Program-made: the position numbers and the translations under genes | In this document: in pieces, positions 38,398 to 50,151 of the stretch | How the letters are laid out: each line of letters starts with the position of its first letter | Numbering within the stretch: position 1 is the stretch's first letter | NCBI RefSeq assembly: GCF_029633915.1 | Contig: NZ_CP091092.1 | Span: 1,178,001 to 1,242,000, forward strand | Origin: Methanomicrobium antiquum | GTDB taxonomy: Archaea; Halobacteriota; Methanomicrobia; Methanomicrobiales; Methanomicrobiaceae | Reading direction: 5' to 3' | DNA length: 64,000 nt | The notes under the pieces: model-generated | Database searches by the model: none | Seen by the model: the letters and a program-made list of their open reading frames with translations, nothing else | What the model was told of the DNA's origin: nothing

Positions 38398-38952
38398 TTA
38401 CATTATTGATTCAAGCTTTTGTTCCAGGACATCAAGTCCGCCTTTGACATCATCAAGATTTTTTCCTCCTGTAAGAATTATTTTTCCTGATGAAAAAATC
38501 AGTGCCACAATTTTTGGATCATCTATTCTGTAAACAAGTCCCGGAAACTGTTCCGGTTCGTACTCGATATTTTCAAGATCCAAAGTTACGACAATCCTGT
38601 TTAAATTAACCGGTTTTTTCATATCATACGAGCAAACTATGTTTGTTATCGAAACATCATTTTTCTCAAATGTTTTTACATTGATTTTTTTAAGCGAATT
38701 TATTATAATATCAAGACCGGTTTTTAAGTCTTCTTTTCTTCGGATGCCGGTAAGCACTATTTTTCCTGACGAAAATATAAGAGATGCAACTTTAGGGTCT
38801 TCAACTCTGAAGACAGCTCCCGGGAAACGTTTTTTATTTAATTCACAATTTGGAATCTGACGAGATACTTCTTCTAAATTTATTGAATCTGCAATCTGAC
38901 CAGAAGCTACAATATTCTCAATTTTTAAGGATTCGTATTTTTTCCCATCCAT
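38398..38952 (-). CDS. tbp: TATA-binding protein, copy 1
   Basis: The 184-aa TBP is the saddle-shaped general transcription factor. Two direct repeats of about 90 residues are visible, each with the FPG(A/L)V(F/Y)R..DPK block and SSGKI(V/I)LTG. ATG at 38950-38952 is chosen because MDGKKYESLKIENIVASG aligns residue for residue with the start of the second TBP at 49597; a start 21 bp earlier is possible. It is divergent from the HTH-synthetase gene over a 530-bp region rich in dyads. Confidence 0.95.
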   Translation of the reverse strand: MDGKKYESLKIENIVASGQIADSINLEEVSRQIPNCELNKKRFPGAVFRVEDPKVASLIFSSGKIVLTGIRRKEDLKTGLDIIINSLKKINVKTFEKNDVSITNIVCSYDMKKPVNLNRIVVTLDLENIEYEPEQFPGLVYRIDDPKIVALIFSSGKIILTGGKNLDDVKGGLDVLEQKLESIM

Positions 38953-39108
38953 TGTATTATAATTTCCAGCCATTTGAGCATAATATTAACTATCTGATTG
39001 TCCCCTGCCAGACAGTGCCAGAGATTAATAATCGCGAATCAGGAATCATATCACAGTTGATACCATCAGGTGAATTCTTTTTTTTAGTAATATCATTTAC
39101 CATCTAAA

Positions 39109-39450: not shown

Positions 39451-39482
39451 ATTAAAATACATTGTGTGTAAAAAATGTAGTT

Positions 39483-41348
39483 ATGAATTCTGATGAAGAA
39501 AAATACTACACACCACAGGAGGTAGCTGACGAACTTAAAGTAGAGGCAAGAACAATTCACTCATGGCTAAGGGAAGGTCAGATAAAGGGTGTAAAAGTAG
39601 GAAGACTCTGGAGAATTCCCCATAGCGAGATAGAAAGATCCAAAGGAAGTGACAAATCTTCATTTGATAAGGAATGCAGTATTCCTGTTGAAAAATCTCA
39701 TAATATGAAAGATTATGATTCAACATACAAAAAATATAAAATAGAAGTTCCGGAATACTTCAATTTTGGATATGATATAATTGACAAGTGGTCAGAAACA
39801 GACAGAAACAAACTTGCAATGATCTGGGTTAACCAAAAGGGTCTTGAAAAAAAATACTCCTTCAGAGATTTAAAAAATCTATCTAATCAGGTCGCAAATA
39901 TCCTTTTAAAGTACAATATAAACAAAGGCGACAGGGTTTTAATCATGCTTCCACGTATTCCGGAATGGTGGATATTTGTAATCGGTCTGATAAAACTTGG
40001 TGCGGTTGTATGCCCATGCCCCGTATTATTAACACCAAAAGATCTTAAATACAGAATTAACGCCGGAAAATTCAAGATGGTTATCACAGATCTTGAAAAC
40101 GCTCCAAAAATAAATGAAATCTGCAACTTCTGCCCTACTTTAAGAGCAAGAATGATAGTTGACGGTGAAATGGAAGGCTGGGCAAGTTATCCTTTTGAAC
40201 TTTTATACCCGGCTCCTGTATCTCACAGATCTGTAAGCATGCCGGCTGAATTTAAAACACGCTCCAAAGATCCAATGCTTATCTACTTCACATCAGGAAC
40301 CACAGGCGAAGCAAAAATGGTTCTTCACAATCATGCTCATCCTCTTGGACATAAAGTGACAGCAGAACTCTGGCATGATTTAACTCCAAATGATGTCCAC
40401 TTCACATCTTCTGACACAGGCTGGGCAAAATGCGGATGGGGGAAAATCTTTGGCCAGTGGATCGCCGGCGCATGCCTTCTTGTTATAGATTTCAGAGGCA
40501 GATTTGAGGCAACACAGCTACTTCCATTTATTGAAAAATACGAGGTAACGAGTTTTTGCTGTCCGCCAACAATATACAGAATGCTGATTCTTGCGGATTT
40601 AAGCAAATTTGACTTGTCAGAACTTCGTCACTGCACAAGTGCCGGAGAACCCCTGAATCCTGAAGTTATCAGAATCTGGGAGGAAGGAACAGGTCTTACA
40701 ATCCATGAAGGATACGGTCAGACTGAAACATGCTGTGCAATTGCATCTTATACCTGTATAAAAAACAAACCAGGTTCAATGGGAAAACCTGCACCGGGCT
40801 GGAATATTGAGCTTCACGATGATGACGGAAATCCTGTGGGCAACTTTGAGGAAGGAAGAATTGCAATCTCACTAAATCCCCGCCCAATCGGACTTATTGT
40901 TGAATATGTAGAAAACCCTGAAGCAAACACAGAGTCGTTTGTAAACGGTTTTTATTATACAGGAGATAAAGCATACCGTGACGATGACGGCTATTTCTGG
41001 TTTGTAGGCAGAAATGATGATGTTATAAAAAGTTCCGGATACAGGATTGGTCCTTTTGAAGTTGAATCAGCACTTCTCGAACATCCTGCTGTGAAAGAGT
41101 CCGCAGTTGTAGGCTCACCTGACAGAATAAGAGGAATGGTTGTAAAGGCATTTATAGTCTTAAATGAAGGCTTTGAACCAAGCGAATCACTAATAAACGA
41201 GATTCAGAGATTTGTCAAGAACAACACCGCACCATATAAATACCCGCGTTCAATTGAATTTGTAGAAGAGCTTCCAAAAACAATATCAGGAAAAATAAAA
41301 AGAAACCTGCTTCGCGAACAGGAATTAAAAAAATACAGAGGAGAATAA
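39483..41348 (+). CDS. AMP-forming acyl-CoA synthetase with N-terminal excisionase/MerR-type HTH domain
   Basis: The 621-aa protein joins two parts. Residues 8-53 form a helix-turn-helix of the excisionase/MerR type: YYTPQEVADELKVEARTIHS, with VGRLWRIP as wing and strand. After a polar linker the enzyme begins at Met75 (MKDYDSTYKKYK). It has A3 YFTSGTTGEAKM (about 268), A5 GYGQTE (about 410) and the catalytic-lysine motif PKTISGKIKR near 600. It is closest to medium-chain/branched acyl-CoA synthetases of the MacsMa kind. The fatty acid substrate is not known. ATG 39483 is used instead of TTG 39462 because it suits the TATA box. A DNA-bound, acyl- or CoA-sensing enzyme is proposed. Confidence 0.88.
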   Translation: MNSDEEKYYTPQEVADELKVEARTIHSWLREGQIKGVKVGRLWRIPHSEIERSKGSDKSSFDKECSIPVEKSHNMKDYDSTYKKYKIEVPEYFNFGYDIIDKWSETDRNKLAMIWVNQKGLEKKYSFRDLKNLSNQVANILLKYNINKGDRVLIMLPRIPEWWIFVIGLIKLGAVVCPCPVLLTPKDLKYRINAGKFKMVITDLENAPKINEICNFCPTLRARMIVDGEMEGWASYPFELLYPAPVSHRSVSMPAEFKTRSKDPMLIYFTSGTTGEAKMVLHNHAHPLGHKVTAELWHDLTPNDVHFTSSDTGWAKCGWGKIFGQWIAGACLLVIDFRGRFEATQLLPFIEKYEVTSFCCPPTIYRMLILADLSKFDLSELRHCTSAGEPLNPEVIRIWEEGTGLTIHEGYGQTETCCAIASYTCIKNKPGSMGKPAPGWNIELHDDDGNPVGNFEEGRIAISLNPRPIGLIVEYVENPEANTESFVNGFYYTGDKAYRDDDGYFWFVGRNDDVIKSSGYRIGPFEVESALLEHPAVKESAVVGSPDRIRGMVVKAFIVLNEGFEPSESLINEIQRFVKNNTAPYKYPRSIEFVEELPKTISGKIKRNLLREQELKKYRGE

Positions 41349-41537: not shown

Positions 41538-42926
41538 TTACCAGTTATCAGCAGTCTTACTCATATACACAATGTGATCTATTCCTTCCTCATACTTTAT
41601 TTTGTAGATATTGAATCTTTCAAGAATTTGTTCAATTTCATGGGCAGATTCCACAATTTTTTCATATTCAGGAGAGCTTTTATTCCCGATTACCTTTATT
41701 ATATTCATTAACGGCTTATTTATCTCAAAAACAACAGAATGTGCATTAGAGAGACTGTTTTTTATATCTTCAAGATTCTGGGAGATATACTCATCATGCT
41801 CTTTTTGATTAACAAGCGAGGTTATATCCTCAATTATTGTTGTAACATGAGTCACCTGGTTGTTTTTTGAGCTAGGGATAAGAGAAACTCTAAAATAGTT
41901 TATCTCTCTTCCTTTCGATTTTAATTTCTTGGTCTTTACAATTGAATGATTTGTGCGGAATACTTCAACATATTCACTTCCCGAAACAAAGATGGAGAAC
42001 TCTTTTAGCTCATAAATAGTCTTTGTAAGCTGAAATGAACTCACCCCAAGTCTCTTTGAGAATTCAAGAAAACTGTTGTTGTAGTATACAAATTTCATGG
42101 AAATATCAGTTATAAATATAACCTCACTAAAAGAGTCAATTAAACCGGTAAATTCATCAAAAGGAATATCTTTTCCGGGTTCTTTTTTAATATCATTATC
42201 AACAGAAAAAATAAAATTCTGAATATCTCTTGATTCATCAAGTATGAATCCTGCTCTTAGATATACAAGACTGGTTGAATCAGGATTTTCAATCTCTATA
42301 GAATCCGGCCAAAAATAAATCATGTCCTTATAGCCGTTAATCTTTTCGGGCTTTGCAGGTGTTGAGAATATGTCATGGAGTTTTCTGCCGACAATTTTGT
42401 TATCCTCACCCACTAACTCAATAAAAGAAGTATTTGCATGAGTAATTACTCCGTTTTTGTCAGTCGCAATAAGAGGCTTTTTAAGTGATGAAATTTTCTT
42501 TGAAAGATTTTCTTTTGCCTTGTTAGTCTCCAAAGAGTCTATTTTGCTTTTGACACGGGTTTTGTGAATCGCCATCTCAATATTTCCAAAAAGCTCACGC
42601 TCTTTGAAAGGTTTTATTAAAAATCCGGCAGGTTTTATAGAAACAGCCCTTTCAACTGTTGTTTTATCAGAATTGCCTGTAAGAAATATAACTGGAATGT
42701 CATAAAGATCCATAATTTTTTTTGCGGCTTCTATACCATCCATATCACCTTTCAGGCGAATATCCATCAGAACAAGATCAGGATGTTTCTCTCCACATAC
42801 CTGTATCGCGTCAAAACCGCTGATAACAGTGCCTGCAATATTATATCCAAGTTTTTTCAATGTTGCCCGGATTTCCATTGCAATTATCATCTCATCTTCA
42901 ACAATCAGTATACTACTACCTTTCAT
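41538..42926 (-). CDS. response regulator with PAS domains
   Basis: The 462-aa protein starts with a receiver domain: ILIVEDE (acidic pocket), LVLMDIRL with phospho-acceptor Asp55, FLTGNSD and FLIKPF (Lys). Two PAS-like segments follow at about 150-200 (LIATDKNGVITHANTSF) and 260-320 (VIFITDISMKFVYYNNSF), then a C-terminal coiled region. No DNA-binding or kinase domain is present. This REC-PAS layout is common in methanogens, whose output is usually unclear. It begins 29 bp after the histidine kinase and is its likely partner. Confidence 0.88.
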   Translation of the reverse strand: MKGSSILIVEDEMIIAMEIRATLKKLGYNIAGTVISGFDAIQVCGEKHPDLVLMDIRLKGDMDGIEAAKKIMDLYDIPVIFLTGNSDKTTVERAVSIKPAGFLIKPFKERELFGNIEMAIHKTRVKSKIDSLETNKAKENLSKKISSLKKPLIATDKNGVITHANTSFIELVGEDNKIVGRKLHDIFSTPAKPEKINGYKDMIYFWPDSIEIENPDSTSLVYLRAGFILDESRDIQNFIFSVDNDIKKEPGKDIPFDEFTGLIDSFSEVIFITDISMKFVYYNNSFLEFSKRLGVSSFQLTKTIYELKEFSIFVSGSEYVEVFRTNHSIVKTKKLKSKGREINYFRVSLIPSSKNNQVTHVTTIIEDITSLVNQKEHDEYISQNLEDIKNSLSNAHSVVFEINKPLMNIIKVIGNKSSPEYEKIVESAHEIEQILERFNIYKIKYEEGIDHIVYMSKTADNW

Positions 42927-42955
42927 TTAATCAACCTGATAATTTTGATTATTTT

Positions 42956-45151
42956 TTAAAATTTTACTGATTTTTGTATTCCTGCAGGAATAGTAATTAT
43001 ATATTCCGCACCGGGATTGTTTCTTACTTCAATTTCTCCTTCAAGCTGGGCTGTAAGATTGTAAATCAACTGCATCCCAAGTGATTCTGAGTTTTCATAA
43101 TCATAATACTCTGAAAATCCCTTCCCGGAATCTTTGACTCTTAAGACATACCTGTCATCTTCTTTTCTATGGAAATCAATTTTTATTTCTCCGCCCGATT
43201 CGTCAAAAGCATATTTTAGTGAATTTGTAAGGATTTCATTGATGATAAGACCACAAGGTATTGCTGTATCAATATCCAGTGTAATATCCTCATCACAATC
43301 ACAGACAATAATAATTTTTTCATCATCCGCACCATATTCATCTGAAAGGTGCATGTAAAGTGTTGTAATATAATCTTTAAGATTTATTCTCGCAAGATTT
43401 TCTGATCGGTATAATTTTTCATGTATCATCGCCATTGAAAAAACCCTGCTTCTGCAGTCCAGCAATATATCATGTATCCCTTCATCATCAGACTGGAGAT
43501 CTTTTAGCTTCAGAATGCTTGCAATAATCTGCAGATTATTTTTAACTCTGTGGTGAATCTCTTTTAAAAGAATCTCTTTTTCTTTTAATGCTTCAAATGT
43601 CTCCAGCTGTTTTTGCTTTTCAAATTCCTTCAATTCATTTTCAGTTTTAACAAGCTCTGTTATGTTTGAAATTACACCCTCCACTGCAATTATCAGACCA
43701 TTATCATCCTTTATTCCCCATCCCTGATTCCATACCCATTTCTCCTCGCCTTTTGCTGTCAGTATCCTGTAGCGTGCCTCAAAAATATTGTCTTTTCCAA
43801 GTGATTTCAAAACATTTTCTTTAAATATTTCAAAATCATCAGGATGAATTATTGATTTTAGGTTTATTGGCTTTCCTTTAATTATATCTGACTGCGAATA
43901 TCCGGACAACTCATAAAAGCCATCGCTTAGGTATTCAGCAGATAAATGTTCATCAATTCTACACCTGTAAGCCATTCCGGAAAAATTCTGCATCAACCGG
44001 GATAGTTTTTTTTCAGTTGCATCAAGGGCTTTTTCAGCTTCTTTTATCTTTGTCAGATCAACGACTGCAAATCTGATTCCGACAGGTACATCCTTGTCTT
44101 TTATTGGGTTTGTGTAGAGAATTATTGGAAATTTTGATCCATCTTTCTTTTGAGCAAAACAATCTTCAAATGAATGTTCATCAATTTCGCCCTTCATTAA
44201 TTTTTCAAAAATTTTCTGACATTCTTTAAAATTATCAGTGCAGATGAAATCTTTAGCATAAATTTCATTTTTCATATCTTCTTTTGTCAGGCCAAAGCTT
44301 TGAAGCCCTTTTTTATTGATGAATGTTATCTTATAATCACTGTCTGTTTCAATTACAGTTAATGGAAGGAAGTTTGAAAGATCATAATATTTTTTCTCTC
44401 TCTCTTTTATCCCCTCATAGGCTTTAACATACTTGGTTGCATCAGCAAATGCCGCAATTGTAATATTTGAAATTTTAGCATCTGATGAAGAATTATCTAT
44501 ACAGCCACTGCTAGTTAAAAAGGTAAGAAGATAATGAATTTTTTCTTCTTTTTTTTCAGGATTTTTTAATTCCACTAAAAAAGGCTTATTAAATTTTTCA
44601 GTACTTTTACTATTAATGATGTCCTGAATTTTTTCTTTTGATTCATCAGAATAAATCCCAACTTTTCCGATGTTTTTTCCTATAATTAATTCTTTTTTGC
44701 ATCCGGATTTTTTTTCAAACATATAATTTACATCAGTGATAATTCCATCATTATCAAAAGCGACAAGAGGTCTTGTATTATAATCAAAAAGAGTTTTAAA
44801 TTTGAATCTGTTTGTCATCAACTCCTTTTCTTTAACAGATAGAATCAGTGCAATAATTCCCATTACAAAAACCATCAAAAGAGTAATTCCCCAATCAGGA
44901 TTTTGTCTATTTAAAAGAACAGTAAATAGTAATGCTATGAGTAAAAGAATACCCGATATTAAAAGACCTTTTTTTTGGAAATAAAACACTGCAAAAATAA
45001 TCGGTAATAAATACAACTGCATTGCAGGAATTACAGCCGCATTTGTAAAAAGAGAATATGAATGGACAAAAATTACTGCTGTTGAAAGAATTAAAGTAAT
45101 TATTATCTTTTTATTATATGATAAATCACTGGTTGTCAATGAATGCTTCAT
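42956..45151 (-). CDS. PAS-domain sensor histidine kinase (HisKA_2 type)
   Basis: The 731-aa kinase has four or so N-terminal membrane helices (about residues 15-105) with almost no external loop. Three PAS domains follow (FDNDGIITDVNYMFEKKSG, then ETDSDYKITFINKKG, then a PAS with YELSGYSQSDI). The H-box is LKEIHHRVKNNLQIIASILK near 530, of the HWE/HisKA_2 family. A C-terminal ATPase has INEILTNSLKYAF and DSGKGF. Signals are probably intramembrane or cytoplasmic. ATG 45151 is preferred to TTG 45166 because AGGA lies 7 nt upstream of it. It forms a two-gene unit with the response regulator. Confidence 0.9.
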   Translation of the reverse strand: MKHSLTTSDLSYNKKIIITLILSTAVIFVHSYSLFTNAAVIPAMQLYLLPIIFAVFYFQKKGLLISGILLLIALLFTVLLNRQNPDWGITLLMVFVMGIIALILSVKEKELMTNRFKFKTLFDYNTRPLVAFDNDGIITDVNYMFEKKSGCKKELIIGKNIGKVGIYSDESKEKIQDIINSKSTEKFNKPFLVELKNPEKKEEKIHYLLTFLTSSGCIDNSSSDAKISNITIAAFADATKYVKAYEGIKEREKKYYDLSNFLPLTVIETDSDYKITFINKKGLQSFGLTKEDMKNEIYAKDFICTDNFKECQKIFEKLMKGEIDEHSFEDCFAQKKDGSKFPIILYTNPIKDKDVPVGIRFAVVDLTKIKEAEKALDATEKKLSRLMQNFSGMAYRCRIDEHLSAEYLSDGFYELSGYSQSDIIKGKPINLKSIIHPDDFEIFKENVLKSLGKDNIFEARYRILTAKGEEKWVWNQGWGIKDDNGLIIAVEGVISNITELVKTENELKEFEKQKQLETFEALKEKEILLKEIHHRVKNNLQIIASILKLKDLQSDDEGIHDILLDCRSRVFSMAMIHEKLYRSENLARINLKDYITTLYMHLSDEYGADDEKIIIVCDCDEDITLDIDTAIPCGLIINEILTNSLKYAFDESGGEIKIDFHRKEDDRYVLRVKDSGKGFSEYYDYENSESLGMQLIYNLTAQLEGEIEVRNNPGAEYIITIPAGIQKSVKF

Positions 45152-45367
45152 GAAATATCCTGCCAATTAGACCTTTTTTATTGTTTTAATATTGCTTTAC
45201 AGAGATTAAGTACATCTGGACTATAAATTCTTTTTCATCATTACACTAAAAAAATAATAAATTTATACCCAAAATGTGATAATGAATCAATATTTTTTCT
45301 TCTACTTTTTATTATCCTCATTTTCTGATTAAATTCTGTAACTGGCATCCGGTTCATATGAATTTGC

Positions 45368-45424
45368 CTCATCCATATAATTTACAAATTTGATATGGTT
45401 CATAACAAAGATGAGATTTATATT
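45368..45424 (+). promoter_or_regulatory. candidate operator and TATA box of the RHH-synthetase gene
   Basis: Two nested dyads lie here: CTCATC (45368-45373) with GATGAG (45410-45415), and CCATAT (45373-45378) with ATATGG (45393-45398). TTTATATT (45417-45424) follows at once. Its centre is about 30 bp before ATG 45450, as expected for a leaderless transcript. The short dyads suit a ribbon-helix-helix dimer. Confidence 0.6.
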
Positions 45425-45449
45425 CTTTGCACCACAAAGTTAGTATTAC

Positions 45450-47354
45450 ATGGTGCGATTTTCAGTCACAATGGATGATGAACTTGTCGATAAAATCGAC
45501 AGAACCACCTCTTCTTTGGGGAAATCCAGATCAGAATGGATAAATGAGATCTGCGAATCAGGCATATCAGGTGCAGTTCTTCCCGGCGGCGGCCAGTGTG
45601 TTGAGGATCTTTTGAACTTAAGTGCAAGGATTCCAAAAAACCAGCCAAATATGACAGATTATGAAACCCTTTACAAGAATTTTAAAATTGACGTTCCCGA
45701 ATATTTCAATTTTGGATTTGATGTAATTGACACCTGGGCTAAGATTGACAGGAACAAAAGGGCAATGATCTGGATTAATCAAAGTGGTTATGAGAAAACA
45801 TATTCCTTCAGACAGCTCATGACAAAATCCAATCAGGCCGCCAATATGCTTTTAAAATACGGCATTAAAAAAGGCGACAGGGTTGCATTAATGCTTCCAA
45901 AAATTCCGGAATGGTGGTTTTTTGCCATTGCATGCATCAAGCTTGGTGCAGTATTTGTCCCATGCCCGACAATGCTAACTTCTAAAGATCTTTTATACAG
46001 GACGCACGTTGCCGGATTTAAAATGATAATAACCGACATGGAAAATGCACCAAAAGTAGAGGAGATATGTCCGGAATGTCCTACACTAAGAGGGCGTCTT
46101 GTTGTTGATGGTGTAAAAGAGGGCTGGATAAGCTACATCGTTGAACTTGATTATCCTGCACCAGTCTCAGGCAAACTGGTGACAAGCGGACTTGAGAGGA
46201 CACGCTCTTCAGATCCAATGGTTATTTATTTCACATCCGGAACAACCGGAGAGGCAAAAATGGCTGTCCATAACCATGCACTTCCTCTTGGCCATATCAC
46301 AACCGGTGCATACTGGCTTGATGTTAAAGCAAACGATGTTCATCTGACACTTTCGGATACAGGCTGGGCAAAATCATCCTGGGGCAAATTTTTTGGCCCG
46401 TGGATTCAGGGAGCATGCAGTATTGTATATGATTTCAGAGGTAAATTTAATGCAACAGAAATTCTGCCCATACTTGAAAAATATGAAGTCACAACCTTTT
46501 GCTGTCCGCCGACAATATACAGAATGCTTATAATGGCAGATCTGGATAAATTTGATCTGTCATCACTTCGTCATTGTGTCAGTGCAGGCGAACCACTAAA
46601 CCCTGAGGTCATCAAAGTCTGGAAAGAAGGTACAGGACTTACAATATACGAAGGATACGGGCAAACTGAACTTGTATTATGCATAGGAACATTTCCGTGT
46701 ATGCAGGCAAAGCCCGGTTCTATGGGAAAGCCATCTCCCGGGTGGAAGATAGAGCTTCACGATGATGACGGAAAGCCGGTAAAAGCCTGTGAGGTTGGAA
46801 GGCTGGCTGTCTCTGTAAACCCAAGGCCTGTTGGAATGTTTGTTGAATACTTCAATAATCCTGAAGCCAATGAAGAGGCGTTTTCCGGTGATTTCTACTA
46901 TACCGGCGATAAGGCCTATATGGATAACGACGGTTATTTCTGGTTTGTTGGAAGATCTGATGACGTAATTAAAAGTTCCGGCTACAGGATAGGTCCGTTT
47001 GAAGTGGAATCTGCAATTATGGAGCATCCTTCAGTAAAAGAGGTAGCTGTTGTCGGATCACCTGATCCAATACGCGGAATGGTTGTAAAGGCATTTGTCA
47101 TCCTAAAAGACGGATATGAACCTTCAGAAATTCTTGTAAGACAGATTCAAAAACATGTTCAGACAACAACTGCACCATATAAATATCCGCGAATTATTGA
47201 GTTTGTTGAAGACCTGCCAAAGACAATTTCCGGAAAAATCAGACGAAATGTGCTTCGTGATGCAGAGATAAAAAAGCATGTTGAAAATATGTCACTTGAT
47301 TCTAAAGAAAAAACAGAAAAAAATGCAAAAAAGACTGAGAGAAAATCCAAATAA
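45450..47354 (+). CDS. AMP-forming acyl-CoA synthetase with N-terminal ribbon-helix-helix domain
   Basis: The 634-aa protein starts with a CopG/NikR-like RHH domain: RFSVTMDDELVDKIDRTTSS and GKSRSEWINEICESG (residues 3-43). A linker leads to the enzyme, which begins at Met68 (MTDYETLYKNFK). A3 is YFTSGTTGEAKM (about 260), followed by A5 GYGQTE and PKTISGKIRR. The catalytic part is a close paralogue of the enzyme at 39483, while the DNA-binding parts are unrelated. A Lys/Glu-rich C-terminal tail of about 25 residues is extra. The transcript seems leaderless. A role as enzyme and repressor, responding to acyl substrate, acyl-AMP or CoA, is inferred. Confidence 0.9.
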   Translation: MVRFSVTMDDELVDKIDRTTSSLGKSRSEWINEICESGISGAVLPGGGQCVEDLLNLSARIPKNQPNMTDYETLYKNFKIDVPEYFNFGFDVIDTWAKIDRNKRAMIWINQSGYEKTYSFRQLMTKSNQAANMLLKYGIKKGDRVALMLPKIPEWWFFAIACIKLGAVFVPCPTMLTSKDLLYRTHVAGFKMIITDMENAPKVEEICPECPTLRGRLVVDGVKEGWISYIVELDYPAPVSGKLVTSGLERTRSSDPMVIYFTSGTTGEAKMAVHNHALPLGHITTGAYWLDVKANDVHLTLSDTGWAKSSWGKFFGPWIQGACSIVYDFRGKFNATEILPILEKYEVTTFCCPPTIYRMLIMADLDKFDLSSLRHCVSAGEPLNPEVIKVWKEGTGLTIYEGYGQTELVLCIGTFPCMQAKPGSMGKPSPGWKIELHDDDGKPVKACEVGRLAVSVNPRPVGMFVEYFNNPEANEEAFSGDFYYTGDKAYMDNDGYFWFVGRSDDVIKSSGYRIGPFEVESAIMEHPSVKEVAVVGSPDPIRGMVVKAFVILKDGYEPSEILVRQIQKHVQTTTAPYKYPRIIEFVEDLPKTISGKIRRNVLRDAEIKKHVENMSLDSKEKTEKNAKKTERKSK

Positions 47355-49596: not shown

Positions 49597-50151
49597 ATGG
49601 TTGAAAAAGATTACGAGTCGCTGAAAATTGAGAACATGGTTGCATCTGGTGTCATCGCTGAATCCATTGATCTTTTTGAATTTACAGAAAAGGTTGAAAA
49701 CTGCGAATTTAACAAAAAGCGCTTCCCGGGAGCTGTCTTTAGGATTGAAGATCCTAAAATCGCATGCCTGATTTTCTCATCTGGAAAGATTGTGATTACC
49801 GGTGTCAGAGACAATAAATCCCTTGAAATAGGAATTGAAAAAGTTTTGAAAGCTCTTAATGACGCTGGTATCAAACCTCTCGACAAACCTGACATTGCTG
49901 TTACCAATATGGTCTGTTCATATAACCTTGAAAGAAAAATTAACCTGAACAAAATGGCTGTAACTTTGAATATCGAAAATGTCGAGTATGAACCGGAACA
50001 GTTCCCGGGTCTTGTATACCGCATATTTGATCCAAAAATTGTCTGTTTGATATTCTCATCAGGAAAGACAATTCTTACAGGCGGTAAGAATCTTGAGGAT
50101 GTTAAAAGAGGAGTAGATGTCCTTGAAAAGACTCTTGACAATATTCTGTAA
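49597..50151 (+). CDS. tbp: TATA-binding protein, copy 2
   Basis: The 184-aa TBP has the two saddle repeats with FPGAVFRIEDPK and FPGLVYRIFDPK. It aligns over the full length with copy 1 at 38398-38952 and without gaps at the start. Differences cluster in the first helix (LFEFTEKVENCEF) and between the repeats, away from the blocks expected to touch DNA. Having two TBPs allows promoter choice, as in other multi-TBP archaea. It is convergent with glutamine synthetase across a CATGAAA hairpin. Confidence 0.95.
   Translation: MVEKDYESLKIENMVASGVIAESIDLFEFTEKVENCEFNKKRFPGAVFRIEDPKIACLIFSSGKIVITGVRDNKSLEIGIEKVLKALNDAGIKPLDKPDIAVTNMVCSYNLERKINLNKMAVTLNIENVEYEPEQFPGLVYRIFDPKIVCLIFSSGKTILTGGKNLEDVKRGVDVLEKTLDNIL

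Follow-up and report, generated by a model that had tools for sequence, protein, structure and literature searches.

Our analysis of a 64,000-nucleotide stretch of the Methanomicrobium antiquum chromosome (the window) suggests that positions 45396-45456 are probably the operator-promoter of a self-repressing acyl-CoA synthetase fused to a ribbon-helix-helix (RHH) domain, and that in many relatives the same protein would also repress a SatP permease. The protein, a presumed fatty-acid- or acetate-activating enzyme, is likely to govern the expression of its own gene and, in many relatives, that of the importer of acetate. This reading draws on a set of short, regularly spaced half-sites that flank the TATA box and reach into the start codon, on their co-occurrence with the RHH domain and on their recurrence upstream of permease genes.

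The RHH-fused synthetase

The gene at 45450-47354 on the forward strand encodes a protein of 634 amino acids, assigned from Pfam, NCBIfam and its nearest structure, in which an RHH domain (residues 1-45) and a linker (about 46-80) precede the AMP-binding (about 95-455) and AMP-binding_C (518-596) domains. The initial annotation had described an RHH-synthetase fusion, and this assignment holds. The enzyme part has the Pfam matches expected of an AMP-forming acyl-CoA synthetase of the ANL superfamily (AMP-binding, 8e-67; AMP-binding_C, 1e-24), and both the FTSGTTGEAK region and K596 are largely or fully invariant in 21 sequences. The RHH_1 match covers residues 3-31 and scores 19.7 bits, just under the Pfam cut-off of 20.5. 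R3 and S5 are invariant, and T7 nearly so, in a 16-sequence alignment spanning families; these polar residues, which alternate along the N-terminal strand, would face the DNA by analogy with known RHH proteins. An AF2 monomer model places helices at residues 10-23 and 27-39 with a pLDDT of about 75, residues 1-7 being of low confidence with the strand unassigned.

The scores against MbcS (NF047394; 518 bits, cut-off 850) and the acetate-CoA ligase equivalog (452 bits, cut-off 729) are below threshold. The fusion is present in about 115 of 232 genomes searched in its order, in at least four families, and a class- and phylum-wide search (a 393-genome sample of the phylum, the class set being the same as the order set) found none outside this order.

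Organization of the promoter

Three half-sites surround the start of the gene. Half-site A, TGGTTC, a variant of TGGTGC, lies upstream of the TATA box (45396-45401, forward strand). The TATA box itself, TTTATATT (45417-45424, forward strand), stands between A and half-site B, GCACCA, which is TGGTGC on the reverse strand and begins 4 bp past the TATA box (45429-45434). Half-site C, TGGTGC (45451-45456, forward strand), is embedded in ATG-GTG-CGA, that is, in the start codon and codons 2-3. The operator region overlaps the interval of the initial annotation (45368-45424) and extends downstream of it: the conserved GCACCA...TGGTGC pair sits just beyond that interval, and both the pair and the TGGTTC upstream of it had been missed.

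The distance from A to B is 33 bp in the window and 32-33 bp in 72 of 90 orthologues, near three helical turns, and that from B to C is 22 bp (20-22 bp in 89/106 orthologues), near two. With about three turns between A and B and about two between B and C, all three half-sites can share one face of the helix. In 33 divergent promoters, half-site B is preceded by an A/T peak whose distance from it is constant (-9 to -6).

The initial annotation had placed both the TATA box and the start codon (ATG, 45450) correctly, with 29-30 bp separating the TATA centre from the ATG, and its suggestion of a leaderless message is supported by our data. In the transcription start site (TSS) map of Methanolobus psychrophilus, where about 16% of transcripts are leaderless, promoter and TSS are separated by about 19-22 nt (PMC5378194). 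The 25 nt between the 3' end of the TATA box and the ATG would therefore leave a predicted leader of about 4-7 nt, and a Shine-Dalgarno (SD)-like word is present in just 2 of 111 orthologues. These two observations agree.

Conservation of the half-sites in orthologous promoters

The half-sites were defined on a discovery set of 31 RHH-fused orthologues and, to guard against circularity, assessed on a validation set of 80 further genomes found with the RHH profile. In the discovery set, B is exact in all 31 promoters, at -17 to -21, C is exact at +1 in 29, and a third TGGTGC/TGGTTC is present near -53 in most. In the validation set, B is exact in 75/80 and within one mismatch in all 80, C is exact in 68/80, and A matches TGGTGC with at most one mismatch in 71/80; the shuffled expectation for B is about 0.2 of the 111 orthologues, which are related by descent, so that these counts are not independent events. 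Of the 33 promoters that differ by more than 40% over -60 to -1, 31 still have an exact B and 28 an exact C.

Variants of the half-sites shift together. In one genus (g37), A and C both read TGGTTC; one locus (L248) has TGGTTCAT...ATGAACCA. TGGTTC at A is confined to proteins with Phe4 (13/25, vs 0/85 with Tyr4), a suggestive association with a residue of the RHH strand that is confounded by descent.

In the 2.44-Mb genome that contains the window, this promoter holds the only exact copy of the B-C pair. The many exact pairs that fall inside coding sequence of GC-rich relatives, for example within the synthetase gene, were left out of the operator counts. A search for GCACCA-N15-TGGTGC with two mismatches gave 28 matches, vs 4 for the reversed control; all of them carried two mismatches and the spacing in the window is N16, and this pattern was dropped.

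The operator follows the RHH domain rather than the enzyme

The B/C arrangement was found in none of 31 paralogues devoid of the RHH domain (11 with an HTH_17 domain and 20 without an extra domain), many of which adjoin the fused gene. A tree of the enzymes requires three or more changes of the RHH label, and the operator accompanies the RHH domain each time. Three or more distinct enzyme clades thus carry the RHH-operator module, with the caveat that the operator and the RHH codons are contiguous and that one recombination could move both without functional coupling.

One such paralogue is encoded in the window at 39480-41348 on the forward strand, 6 kb upstream of the fused gene. It is 69% identical to the RHH-fused protein over the enzyme part, an N-terminal HTH_17 (excisionase-like) domain replacing the RHH domain. 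Its promoter is devoid of the TGGTGC operator, which was found at none of the 11 promoters of HTH_17 paralogues. In relatives, ACATT/AATGT words are present near the TATA box of this gene; only in M. mobile-like species do they form a long inverted repeat, AATGTTATTTTGTGTC/GACATAAAATAACATT. The HTH_17 paralogue could be another synthetase that regulates itself. The two synthetase genes are separated by genes on the reverse strand (41538-45166) for a response regulator with PAS domains and a PAS-containing HisKA_2 histidine kinase. Two genes for TATA-binding proteins (38398-38973, reverse strand; 49597-50151, forward strand) flank the synthetase region within 11 kb.

Recurrence at SatP-type permease genes

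A genome of the same genus has just one further exact pair, and this precedes a gene for a 196-amino-acid GPR1/FUN34/YaaH protein (PF01184). We take this family to be the same as AceTr. The acetate transporter of Methanosarcina belongs to AceTr (PMC7746861). Across the order, unlinked SatP-type genes with a placeable start have at least two GGTGC/GCACC words within 200 bp upstream in 30 of 31 cases from RHH-fusion genomes, vs about 0.1-0.4 expected. SatP genes of genomes without the fusion have fewer half-sites (P = 0.0015), and SatP subfamily B has nearly none. The order TATA-B-C is retained at many SatP promoters, although no start codon overlaps C there. The one exception among the fusion genomes is that of the window, whose own SatP gene has no half-site; the operator described here therefore appears to serve its own gene only.

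Other candidate targets were noticed. In one genome (G011, L266 1501-1528), a GCACCA/TGGTGC pair resembling the operator precedes a LeuA/citramalate-synthase-like gene by about 100 bp; a related genome (G016, C1:1160007-1160034) has a similar pair, and this gene is a possible further target. Several intergenic GGTGC/GCACC words near a cofH-like gene (G021, L261 1501-1527) make that region another possible one.

Alternative readings of the region

The initial annotation had proposed autorepression through two nested dyads, CTCATC/GATGAG enclosing CCATAT/ATATGG. All four words are present, and autoregulation by the RHH domain is among the best-supported readings, but we consider it close to excluded that these dyads are the RHH operator. 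CTCATC (45368-45373) and GATGAG (45410-45415) are centred at 45391.5, and CCATAT (45373-45378) and ATATGG (45393-45398) at 45385.5. The dyads are indeed nested; their centres, however, lie 6 bp apart, so that they do not form a single symmetric operator. They also occur at a chance-level frequency: the 57 bp contain three exact 6-bp inverted repeats against 1.16 expected from dinucleotide shuffles (P = 0.16), and a nested pair arises in 27% of such shuffles of the whole intergenic region. Neither dyad was found in any of the 110 other orthologous promoters (1/111 for each, the window itself). A genome-wide search for CTCATC-N0..30-GATGAG, the window's own spacing being N36, gave six other sites with no pattern. 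The two dyads are best treated as chance; the ATATGG word overlaps the start of half-site A (ATATGGTTC). The conservation of C could in turn be merely that of a Met-Val-Arg N-terminus, with GCACCA/TGGTGC forming an mRNA hairpin, as C falls within codons 1-3 and only one of the 111 proteins starts with anything other than MVR. The synonymous choice at these codons is extreme, however: Val2 is GTG in 97/111 and Arg3 is CGA in 71/111, vs 29% of Val codons and 2% of Arg codons elsewhere in 31 fully read genes, an excess that shows selection on ATGGTGCGA as DNA. Moreover, B lies upstream of the predicted start and hence would be outside the transcript, the pair recurs in noncoding DNA at SatP, and the region has no Rfam match. 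A coding or hairpin origin is accordingly very improbable.

Somewhat more room exists for two readings in which the half-sites are a genuine operator. TGGTGC could be recognized by another regulator of carboxylate metabolism, either a stand-alone RHH protein or a regulator of another type, with the RHH domain of the synthetase serving, for instance, in oligomerization. Stand-alone RHH proteins with weaker profile matches are encoded in some genomes, and one genome (G052, L135) has an intact SatP operator array and no detectable RHH-synthetase gene, which recent transfer would explain. Against this, the promoter site tracks the RHH domain and not the enzyme (31/31 vs 0/31), no second RHH-profile match of comparable score is common to these genomes, and the SatP sites are fewer or decayed where the fusion is missing, as in a relative of G052 (G073, L267) whose family is without RHH synthetase. 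We regard this explanation as unlikely. It is similarly doubtful that the synthetase binds the operator and activates its promoter. Half-site A, which precedes the TATA box by a nearly constant number of base pairs, would be suitably located for an activator; B is immediately adjacent to the TATA box and C lies over the predicted start site, positions at which a bound protein blocks initiation, and the permease promoters retain the order TATA-B-C in many genomes.

A model of a self-regulating enzyme

In the autorepression model that we favour, the N-terminal RHH domain of the synthetase would bind the TGGTGC half-sites. B immediately follows the TATA box, and C coincides with the predicted start of transcription and with the start codon; occupation of A, B and C would block TBP/TFB or RNA polymerase and so repress the leaderless mRNA of the enzyme's own gene. 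In relatives, the protein could act in trans on the promoter of the unlinked SatP-type acetate permease gene, which has like half-sites, and thereby limit both its own supply and that of the permease. Presumably, the substrate or the acyl-AMP/CoA state of the enzyme would set DNA binding.

Self-regulating RHH enzymes are already known, the example being PutA of enteric bacteria, in which an N-terminal RHH domain is likewise fused to a metabolic enzyme (proline dehydrogenase/P5C dehydrogenase). PutA binds only the putA-putP spacer and has a very small target set, its own gene and the substrate transporter gene putP (PMC8249747); a comparable transporter control may exist in relatives, where the operator recurs at SatP-type genes, though not in the genome of the window. 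In contrast to PutA, the present protein is an AMP-forming acyl-CoA synthetase from an archaeon, the enzyme parts have no homology, the operator consists of TGGTGC with spacings of about 21 and 33 bp at an archaeal TATA promoter, and the transporter gene is unlinked. By analogy with PutA, plentiful substrate could cause DNA binding to yield to catalysis. The corepressor of BirA is its acyl-adenylate, which makes BirA the obvious sensing model for the synthetase, and by this analogy the acyl-adenylate could be the signal. BirA (HTH and biotin ligase) has been named as a trigger enzyme (PMC8249747) and is similarly an adenylate-forming ligase bearing its own DNA-binding domain, but it differs in DNA-binding fold, enzyme fold and targets.

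The RHH domain itself has a weak match to NikR (PDB 1q5v, E 0.24). The half-sites of Escherichia coli NikR, GTATGA, form the two ends of a long inverted repeat (PMC4486848); two RHH dimers occupy them, about two turns apart, a spacing similar to that of B and C. Unlike NikR, the synthetase has no nickel-binding domain, the B-C half-sites are everted and there is a third site, A. The closest solved enzyme is MacsMa, an acyl-CoA synthetase of Methanosarcina acetivorans (3etc; E 2e-172 over residues 66-606); the match excludes the RHH domain and implies no self-regulation. The acyl pocket of MacsMa takes small branched substrates, going by the title of its structure paper (cited in PMC7746861).

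The synthetase combines an enzyme fused to a DNA-binding domain with a conserved operator at its own promoter, as expected of a trigger enzyme. It is tempting to go one step further, although here we are in some doubt, and to suggest a group of archaeal trigger enzymes in which the synthetase would read its own acyl-AMP/acyl-CoA state and so set how far the operator at the TATA box and start codon is occupied, and likewise the promoter of the carboxylate permease gene; in some genera, the tandem paralogue would have independently gained HTH_17, placing two self-reading synthetases side by side. No description of an RHH-acyl-CoA synthetase fusion came up in a literature search conducted largely outside subscription papers. 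The model lends itself to direct testing: the operator is short, and one polypeptide holds both a DNA-binding domain of 50 residues and an enzyme whose activity can be measured. If it is correct, the regulator, the operator and the two-gene target set of short-chain carboxylate assimilation would be identified for a large part of one methanogen order, and archaea would have evolved the logic of PutA independently, around an unrelated enzyme.
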